Shown: one piece after another, positions 16,617 to 19,819 of the stretch
Layout of the letters: the number at the start of each line of letters is the position of its first letter
Position numbering within the stretch: the first letter of the stretch is position 1
Origin: Acidobacteriota bacterium
GTDB lineage: Bacteria; Acidobacteriota; Thermoanaerobaculia; Thermoanaerobaculales; Thermoanaerobaculaceae
Reading direction: 5' to 3'
Length of the DNA: 64,000 nucleotides
NCBI GenBank assembly: GCA_003133645.1
Contig: PKYI01000053.1
Location: forward strand, 2,464-66,463
Notes under the pieces: model-generated
What the model saw: the letters and a program-made list of their open reading frames with translations, nothing else
Told to the model about the DNA's origin: nothing
Databases searched by the model: none
Made by a program: the position numbers and the translations under genes

Positions 16617-18446
16617 TCAGATGCCGCCGGCGGGGCGGAACGCCGTGTCGTAGAGGTGGCGGGCCCAGCCGCGACGGCCGAACTCGCGGCCCTTGCCACC
16701 CTTGTCGCCGCCGAGCATCCACTCGCGCACCGGTACCGAGAAGCCGGTCTTGCCGCGGGTGTAGACGGCCGGAGGGAGGCCGCCGGCGGGGCTCCTGGCG
16801 AGGAACAGCTTGCGGTTGCCGCGGGCGTGCACGAGCAAAGGCGCGACCGCGCGCAGCAGGTGGTGCTCGACGAGCGGCACCCGGACCTCGAGCGAGTGCG
16901 CCATGCTTGCCCAGTCGATGTCGCGCAGCAACTGGTCCCGCATGTAGATGCACGACTCGAGGGAAACCATGCGTAGGAACGGCTGGCGCGGGTCGGGGGT
17001 CAGCGCCTTGCCAATCAGCCCGATCATGTCGAGGCGCTCGAGGCCCGCCCGCGCCGCCTCGGCGCCCATCAGCTCCGGCAGGTCCCACGGCATGAAGACG
17101 GCGCGCTTGAGGAAGTAAGCGCCGGCGTAGCTGCCGCCGTACTTGAGGATCGCGCCGTGCTTCTGACTGATGTGCGTGCTCCGCTTCGGCGTCAGCGCGA
17201 GGTACGCGCGGTGCAGCGCCTCGGGGAGCAGCGGCAGCTTCGACGGCACCCGCGCCAGCTTCACCATCATCGGCACCTTGCGGTAGGTGCCGTAGCCGCC
17301 GAGCAGTTCGTCGCCGCCGGTGCCCGAGAGCGCCACCTTCAAGCCGCAGCGGGCCGCCGCAAGGCTCACGAAGTACGAGTTCACCGCGTCCGTCGTGGGC
17401 TGGTCCATCGCCTCGATGACGCGCGGAAACTCGGCGACGAAGTCGGCCTTGGAGATCATCACCGTGCTGTGGTCCGTGCCGTAGTGGCGGGCGACCTCCT
17501 CGGCGAGCGGCGCCTCGTCGCGCCGGCTGCCCTGGTACTCCGAAAACGTGAGGGTGACGGTCTTGAGGTCGGTCGCCCCGGCCTCGCGGGCGAGCGCCAC
17601 CGTCGAGGTCGAGTCGCGCCCGGAGGAGAGGAACATCCCCACCCTGACGTCGGCCACGAGGTGGTAGCGGACCGACTCGAGGAAGGCGAGGCGGAAGCGT
17701 TCCTGCAACTCCGCCTCGGGCAGCGGCGGCGCGTGTTCGGCCGCATCCGCGAGGATCGCGGGCACCGAGGCGAACGCCTCCGGCTCGCTCACCCCCCGCT
17801 CTCCCACCCAGACGAACGAGCCGGCCGGGAGCGCTCGCACGCCCTCGTAGAGGGTGAACGGTTCCGGGACGGCGCCGCGCAGGAAAAACCCCGCCACGCC
17901 CGCCGGGTCCTGCCGCCGCGCCACCCGCCCGCCCGCGAGCAGCGCCTTGACCTGGGAGGCGACGCGCACGACGCCGCCGCCGGCGGCGATGTACAGCGGC
18001 TTGACGCCGTACAGGTCGCGGGCGAGCAGCATGCGCCGGTTGCGCCGATCCCAGAGCGCGAACGCGAACATCCCACGCAGCTCGGCCAGCATCGCCGTGC
18101 CCCTGGCCCGGTACAGCTCGAGCAGCACCTCGGTGTCGGACGCGGTGGCGAAGCGGCGTCCCTCGGCCTCCAGCTCGGCCCGCAGCTCGCGGAAGTTGTA
18201 GATCTCGCCGTTGAACGCGATCGCGTAGTTGCCGCCGTCCGCCACCATCGGCTGCGCCGCGGCGTCGGAGAGGTCGATGATCGAGAGCCGCCGGTGCGCA
18301 AGGCCGACGCGGCCGTCGGGGGAGAACCACTCGCCGCTGCCGTCCGGCCCGCGCCGCCGCATCGCGTCGCGGACGGCGCGCAGCTCCGCGCGGTCCACCT
18401 CCCCCGCACGCGGGTCGTAAGCGAAGATCCCGGCAATTCCGCACAT
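16617..18446 (-). CDS. asnB: asparagine synthase (glutamine-hydrolysing) AsnB-type
   Basis: 609 aa from ATG 18446. This start is fixed because the nucleophile must be Cys2 (MCGIAGIF); a purine-rich site AGGGGAG precedes it. The N-terminal class II glutaminase domain (1-~210) has RGPDGSGEW and FNGEIYN. The C-terminal ATP-pyrophosphatase domain has its PP-loop at 274-279 (SSGRDS) instead of the usual SGGxDS. It also has 'SGTGGDELLGGY'. It makes asparagine from aspartate, or amidates another carboxylate, using glutamine and ATP. The PP-loop change and the long C-terminus leave room for a specialised amidotransferase. Confidence 0.85.
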   Translation of the reverse strand: MCGIAGIFAYDPRAGEVDRAELRAVRDAMRRRGPDGSGEWFSPDGRVGLAHRRLSIIDLSDAAAQPMVADGGNYAIAFNGEIYNFRELRAELEAEGRRFATASDTEVLLELYRARGTAMLAELRGMFAFALWDRRNRRMLLARDLYGVKPLYIAAGGGVVRVASQVKALLAGGRVARRQDPAGVAGFFLRGAVPEPFTLYEGVRALPAGSFVWVGERGVSEPEAFASVPAILADAAEHAPPLPEAELQERFRLAFLESVRYHLVADVRVGMFLSSGRDSTSTVALAREAGATDLKTVTLTFSEYQGSRRDEAPLAEEVARHYGTDHSTVMISKADFVAEFPRVIEAMDQPTTDAVNSYFVSLAAARCGLKVALSGTGGDELLGGYGTYRKVPMMVKLARVPSKLPLLPEALHRAYLALTPKRSTHISQKHGAILKYGGSYAGAYFLKRAVFMPWDLPELMGAEAARAGLERLDMIGLIGKALTPDPRQPFLRMVSLESCIYMRDQLLRDIDWASMAHSLEVRVPLVEHHLLRAVAPLLVHARGNRKLFLARSPAGGLPPAVYTRGKTGFSVPVREWMLGGDKGGKGREFGRRGWARHLYDTAFRPAGGI

Positions 18447-18570: not shown

Positions 18571-18894
18571 TCACCGTTGCAACTTGCCCGTTGCCTCCCG
18601 CAGCGCCGCGGTGATCATCTCCCACAAGGGCATCCCCGATGCCCCGTACAGCCTTCACGTGAAGCCGTAGTCGGTGCGCTCCCGCATCGCGGGATCGATG
18701 TCGAGGCCCTGGACCAGCACCGTCGGACTGCCGTGCAACCGGTACCTGTGGGCCTGGTCCACGGTTGTGACGTGGGCCATTTCGAGCCGGATCGGCAGGG
18801 CGAGTTCGGCCGCCACCTGCTCCACCAGAGCCCTGGTCGGCGGCGTGTGCTCGCACCCGTCGGTGTACGCGATGGTGACTTCGATAGGCGACAT
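18571..18894 (-). CDS. thioredoxin-fold protein with in-frame UGA (candidate selenoprotein)
   Basis: From ATG 18894 the frame encodes 79 residues (MSPIEVTIAYTDGCEHTPP... GSPTVLVQGLDIDP...RTDYGFT), reaches TGA at 18655-18657, and continues in frame with RLYGASGMPLWEMITAALREATGKLQR to a second TGA at 18571. The family I recall for this thioredoxin-like fold ends '..YGFxCRxY...G.P...I.AALR', so the TGA stands where a conserved Cys is expected and homology continues beyond it. A hairpin fitting the bacterial SECIS rules follows (18627-18645). Reading TGA as selenocysteine gives 107 aa with Sec80. A plain nonsense mutation is the alternative. Cys14 in the first loop is the other redox residue. Confidence 0.6.
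18627..18645 (-). promoter_or_regulatory. SECIS-like hairpin after in-frame UGA
   Basis: On the transcript, GGGCAUC (18644-18638), loop GGG (18637-18635) and GAUGCCC (18634-18628) form a perfect 7-bp stem, extended by one G-U pair. The apical loop lies 18-20 nt after the UGA and has G in its first positions. As I recall the bacterial SECIS rules, loop distance is about 16-37 nt with a G among the first two loop bases. Function is inferred. Confidence 0.5.
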
Positions 18895-19069: not shown

Positions 19070-19819
19070 ATGCGCATGAAGGATCGGGTGGTTCTGGTGA
19101 CGGGCGCCAGCCGCGGCATCGGCGCGGCCACCGCGAAGCTCCTGGCTCAGGAGGGCGCCGCGGTGGCGGTCAACTATTTTCAGTCGGCCGAGGCGGCGGA
19201 GAAGGTGGTGGCGAGTATCCGCACCGCGGGTGGTACGGCCGCGGCGGTGCGCGCGGACGTCCGCGACCAGGCTCAGGTGCAGGCCATGGTGGCCGAGGCC
19301 GAGAACGCGCTCGGTCCGATCGACACGCTCGTGTCCAACGCCTCGATCGGCTTCCCCGTCGTCCCCTTCCTCGAATACCCGTGGGAGGCGTTCGAGGCCA
19401 AGCTGACCGGTGAGCTGAGAGCGGCATTCTTCTGCTGCCGCGCCGTCGTGCCGGGGATGGCGGTGCGCAAGAAGGGGTGCATCATCGCCATTAGCAGCGG
19501 CCTCTCCCGCGTCCCGGGCCCGGGGTTCTGCGCGCACAGCGCCGCCAAGTCGGGGCTCGACGGCTTCGCCAAGAGCCTGGCGCTGGAACTCGGCCCGCTC
19601 GGCATCCGCGTCAACGTCGTCGCCCCCGGCCTGACGCTCACCGACGCGACCGCCTGGCAGCCGCAGGAGGCCAAGGAGGCCGCCGCGAAGCGTACGCCGC
19701 TGCGCCGTAACGGTCAGCCCGAGGACATCGCGGCCGCCGTCCTCGCGCTCGCCTCCGACGACGCCCGCTTCATCACCGGCGCGTACCTCCCCGTGAGCGG
19801 CGGCATCCAGATGCTCTGA
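19070..19819 (+). CDS. short-chain dehydrogenase/reductase, FabG-like, with altered active site
   Basis: 249 aa, ribosome site AAAGGGG before ATG 19070 (a second ATG lies two codons on). The cofactor loop is TGASRGIG (11-18), the structural motif is SNAS near 90, and the active-site Ser is at 142-143. The expected Tyr-x3-Lys pair reads H156-S-A-A-K160, so the catalytic tyrosine is replaced by histidine. The C-terminus 'PVSGGIQML' is normal for FabG-like proteins. The fold and length (about 250) are complete. The enzyme may have unusual chemistry, be inactive, or act as a binding partner. Confidence 0.8.
   Translation: MRMKDRVVLVTGASRGIGAATAKLLAQEGAAVAVNYFQSAEAAEKVVASIRTAGGTAAAVRADVRDQAQVQAMVAEAENALGPIDTLVSNASIGFPVVPFLEYPWEAFEAKLTGELRAAFFCCRAVVPGMAVRKKGCIIAISSGLSRVPGPGFCAHSAAKSGLDGFAKSLALELGPLGIRVNVVAPGLTLTDATAWQPQEAKEAAAKRTPLRRNGQPEDIAAAVLALASDDARFITGAYLPVSGGIQML

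Follow-up and report, generated by a model that had tools for sequence, protein, structure and literature searches.

Results

The window analysed here, a stretch of 64,000 nucleotides from an Acidobacteriota assembly (GCA_003133645.1, contig PKYI01000053.1), carries on its minus strand a complete gene for a putative selenoprotein of the DF family (18571..18894), 107 residues long (MSPIEV...GFT-U-RLYG...KLQR). Inspection of the reading frame places the ATG start at 18894 and the TGA terminator at 18573-18571. Between them lies the in-frame TGA reported in the initial annotation (18655..18657, minus strand), which is codon 80 of the gene and is taken here as selenocysteine (Sec), the same alignment column being Cys in most relatives; 27 sense codons separate it from the terminator. 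The Cys14 codon, TGC (18853..18855, minus strand), specifies the conserved first active-site Cys that follows β-strand 1 of the thioredoxin fold. The downstream neighbour, not part of the selenoprotein, is an asnB-like asparagine synthase gene on the same strand (16617..18446, minus strand, protein start MCGIAGIF), and a short-chain dehydrogenase (SDR) gene diverges upstream (19070..19819, plus strand). The SDR gene is kept beside the two nearest relatives, L047 and L048: the neighbours common to the window and L047 are carB, SDR and asnB, and those common to the window and L048 are carB and SDR.

The protein matches the NCBIfam profile NF049942, 'DF family (seleno)protein', with 93.7 bits against a curated cut-off of 70 and over the whole profile (1-96 of 96); in the genome search the same gene scored 86.2 bits. 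By this profile score the window protein is a member of the DF family. Relatives were sought in 396 genomes of the phylum, of which 37 contain a profile match, and in genome contigs. Close relatives, 75 to 85% identical, are found on three Acidobacteria MAG contigs and align along the entire gene, which supports its full length, and more distant ones are found elsewhere. The gene is missing from the searched genome of the same genus (G262), which suggests that it is dispensable or patchily inherited.

The alignment bears out the earlier proposals that the UGA replaces a conserved Cys and that similarity to the family goes on for 27 residues beyond it: homologues run through the UGA, the frame stays open for 27 codons, and column 80 is TGA in nine distinct loci of one phylum (L020, L071 and L049, which are one contig, being counted once) and Cys in 22 rows. 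One relative has Asn at this column, in an uncertain stretch (L037), and no relative shows TAA, TAG or a frameshift at this point. Every full-length row retains Cys14. On the tree, the distribution of Sec and Cys calls for at least four changes, two of them forced by well-supported branches, and the UGA loci include lineages that are far apart. The dN/dS ratio over the 20 codons that follow the UGA is 0.25 and 0.29 relative to L047 and L048, and noisy relative to the more distant L021; to judge from these codons, purifying selection and conservation continue downstream of UGA80.

A SECIS-like hairpin, GGGGCATC-GGG-GATGCCCT (18627..18645, minus strand), follows the UGA, with bases 18 to 20 past the codon forming its loop. 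Its core, GGGCATC-GGG-GATGCCC (18644..18628), is the perfect 7-bp stem with a GGG loop described earlier, and counts 8 bp if the outer G-U pair is included (18645..18627). The geometry rule of bSECISearch places a G within the first two bases of the loop and the loop about 16-37 bases past the UGA, and the hairpin of the window gene agrees with both. Since this hairpin taken by itself reaches only p = 0.05 against 500 synonymous recodings, the SECIS argument is carried by the comparison within the family. There the difference between the 9 UGA loci and 23 Cys loci exceeds chance: the best G-loop hairpin of the SECIS zone reaches a median of -9.2 kcal/mol in the former and -2.3 kcal/mol in the latter (Mann-Whitney p = 1.6e-5, a value that overstates the independence of the data because five of the UGA loci are close relatives of one another). 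A SECIS-like hairpin lies downstream of the UGA in 9/9 of these loci and is rare in the Cys relatives, the exceptions being a strong hairpin in one Cys row (L084) and a weak one in one UGA row (L039). The stem sequences vary among the UGA loci (GGGGCAT, CTCCCGG, GGAGGGC, CTGGCGG), which indicates conservation of the structure rather than of the letters. A search of the region against Rfam returned nothing significant.

The host assembly (3.69 Mb, 216 contigs, 89% complete) encodes SelB (306.9 bits, cut-off 242), tRNA-Sec (78.3 bits; identified by ARAGORN as SeC with anticodon tca) and SelD (366 bits). The next-best matches to the tRNA-Sec model that were checked in this genome are tRNA-Ser genes. 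The selD gene (L017:1480-2535, on contig C104 of the host assembly) is a selenoprotein gene in its own right: it has an in-frame TGA, MSREELLKLTHLVSCAG-U-ASK, at GUASK, the canonical catalytic Sec site of SelD (GUxxK). Two models found no selA in the host assembly. All four other sampled genomes of the host's family have the gene, as does G262 from the same genus, and because the same-genus genome has it, its absence here is probably a gap in the assembly. Of the sel genes expected in the genome, selB, tRNA-Sec and selD are there and selA was not found in the assembly; the prediction that the organism uses selenocysteine is supported by selB, tRNA-Sec and a selD with a UGA of its own. Among the searched genomes, selB exceeds its cut-off in 7/7 that carry a UGA form and in 10/17 that carry a non-UGA form.

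Could UGA80 be an ordinary stop, leaving a truncated protein of 79 residues or a pseudogene, with the downstream similarity as a relic? The modest p value of the single-gene hairpin and the missing selA would fit such a reading, but the recurrence of the same UGA in nine distinct loci, some of them in lineages far apart on the tree, the purifying selection past the codon, the enrichment of hairpins in the UGA loci and the presence of sel genes speak against it, and we regard it as very improbable. A reading of UGA80 as Trp, Cys or Gly, through a change of the code or suppression, draws on the open frame and nothing more; UGA also terminates this very gene, tRNA-Sec and selB are in the genome and the aligned residue is Cys, all of which makes such a decoding even less credible. 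From the gene structure, the Sec/Cys column, the SECIS trend and the decoding machinery observed here, we infer that Sec is inserted at codon 80 and that the gene encodes a selenoprotein, with a probability of about 0.93-0.95.

Two loci, L034:1492-1791 (plus strand) and L039:1489-1788 (minus strand), belong to a thioredoxin-like subfamily that is divergent (GCKNTP...APA-U-RLYPG); they too have TGA at the corresponding column, and a hairpin, weak in L039, comes after it. From its sequences, this group is probably a further selenoprotein subfamily.

The predicted structure of the window protein (AlphaFold, AF2; pLDDT 90) shows a thioredoxin-like order of strands and helices and has structural matches to thioredoxins. 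Foldseek lists thioredoxin and SelW-like chains among the top folds, with probabilities up to 1.00, and VIA gives a moderate match, with Z up to 8.9 and an rmsd of 2.9 over 82 residues. In this model the DF protein has a thioredoxin fold. Cys14 follows strand 4-10 and lies in the motif GCEHTP, which is not CxxC.

In the loci examined, the Cys form of DF frequently makes up the N-terminal portion of a longer protein. It is fused to MerT at L063:1087-1803 (minus strand) and L064:1465-2199 (plus strand), and five genomes contain a fusion with a MerC-like membrane domain (L043, L044, L085, L087 and L088). Other fusions continue after DF with zf_CopZ and HMA segments (L068, L070) or with an LMWPc domain, that of low-molecular-weight phosphatases and arsenate reductases (L075:1495-2217 and L077:1495-2214, both plus strand); one class of arsenate reductases has the LMWPc fold. 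MerR-type regulators adjoin L063, L064, L068 and L088, and at L065 the DF gene stands between a MerT-HMA gene and a gene for a pyridine-nucleotide-disulfide reductase. Among the Sec forms, that of G219 lies downstream of genes for MerR, MerT-HMA, zf_CopZ and HMA that share its strand, L049 is near genes that code for a CusB-like protein and for an outer-membrane and a cation-efflux protein, both of the efflux type, and an ArsR-type regulator and an SBF transporter are encoded no more than about 2 to 4 kb from the Sec form of G385 (L097). The linkage to mercury transporters or reductases is seen in many relatives, one Sec form included, and not at the window gene, and the search of its own genome did not find MerT. 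As regards DF-MerT fusions, the accessible parts of PMC12013277 and PMC13188914 contain no mention of them.

Discussion

The model that we propose for the DF protein combines the recoding of UGA80 with the pairing of two distant residues. The UGA would be decoded as Sec by means of tRNA-Sec, SelB and the hairpin downstream of the codon. A two-residue thiol/selenol pair would consist of Cys14, which occupies the usual place behind β-strand 1 in a thioredoxin fold, and Sec80, which falls within the loop region beyond the final strand, where CRxY is found in relatives. As the domain fusions and gene neighbours of the family suggest, this pair may bind, pass on or reduce soft metal(loid)s such as Hg and As, or their thiol adducts, and would in this be comparable to a MerP/HMA domain or an arsenate reductase's redoxin.

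On the evidence of gene context, we give an even chance to the proposal that Cys14 and Cys/Sec80 serve the DF family in the handling of soft metal(loid)s or of their adducts, and a lower one in the case of the window gene. Since the latter has asnB and SDR genes as neighbours and its genome yielded no MerT, a metal role for it would be an extension from the family, and its own role could be generic redox repair. More generally, the selenoprotein may be a thiol-disulfide redoxin that is not specialised for metals, a generic redoxin having been recruited into the mer and ars fusions, and this has a little less than an even chance. The thioredoxin fold is in keeping with a general redoxin, as are the neighbours of the window gene, carB, SDR and asnB, which are not metal genes, and a stand-alone Cys form (L067) that lies beside genes for a tyrosyl-tRNA synthetase and an 8-oxoguanine glycosylase; against it stand the many separate genomes in which DF is fused with MerT, MerC, CopZ/HMA or LMWPc, the Sec form in a mer-like cluster and the want of a CxxC motif in DF. 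We put forward tentatively a more specific form of the metal hypothesis, in which the DF domain would relay soft metal(loid)s through its thiol/selenol groups, as an equivalent of MerP with a thioredoxin fold and, in some lineages, with Sec. If it is true, the handling of mercury or arsenic has selenium incorporated in the protein itself, and as a ligand for them a selenol would be unusually strong. The fusions with MerT, MerC and arsenate-reductase-like domains make 'hypothetical protein DF' a testable candidate for such handling.

The present results correct the annotation of a gene that would otherwise be cut at 79 to 87 residues and indicate the use of selenocysteine in this lineage of the Acidobacteriota. 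They do not define a new selenoprotein family, because DF is already catalogued in NF049942 and by deep-Sep in 2025. The latter work (PMC12013277) is the source of the family, as 'hypothetical protein DF'; it describes a Sec form in Desulfosediminicola flagellatus, reports no conserved domain, mentions Cys homologues and states that a UGA homologue is absent from other Sec users. A review of 2026 (PMC13188914) lists 'hypothetical protein DF' as well, and the accessible parts of both papers give no function for it. What is new is a wider distribution of the Sec form than published and a testable hypothesis for the function of the family, which now has independent UGA homologues where it previously rested on one published organism.

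How does the protein compare with the systems already known? It resembles DF as defined by NF049942, a small Sec/Cys family, in matching the full length of the profile above its curated cut-off, and differs from DF as published in PMC12013277 in that Sec forms, there confined to Desulfosediminicola flagellatus, occur here in several lineages of Acidobacteriota. The likeness to Thioredoxin_3 (PF13192) consists of the thioredoxin fold and a weak match over residues 5-63, with 24.1 bits, below the gathering cut-off of 24.8. According to PMC13188914, Thioredoxin_3 includes the 'thioredoxin-like selenoprotein' of the CxU/UxC types, whereas the Sec of DF, at residue 80, lies in the C-terminal part, far from the usual active site, and DF has no CxU/UxC motif. 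Finally, the DF domain resembles the HMA domain of MerP in being fused to, or encoded beside, the MerT/MerC transporters; but HMA is a ferredoxin-like domain with a CxxC motif and DF a predicted thioredoxin fold with two distant Cys/Sec residues, and the relation between the two would be one of functional analogy only.
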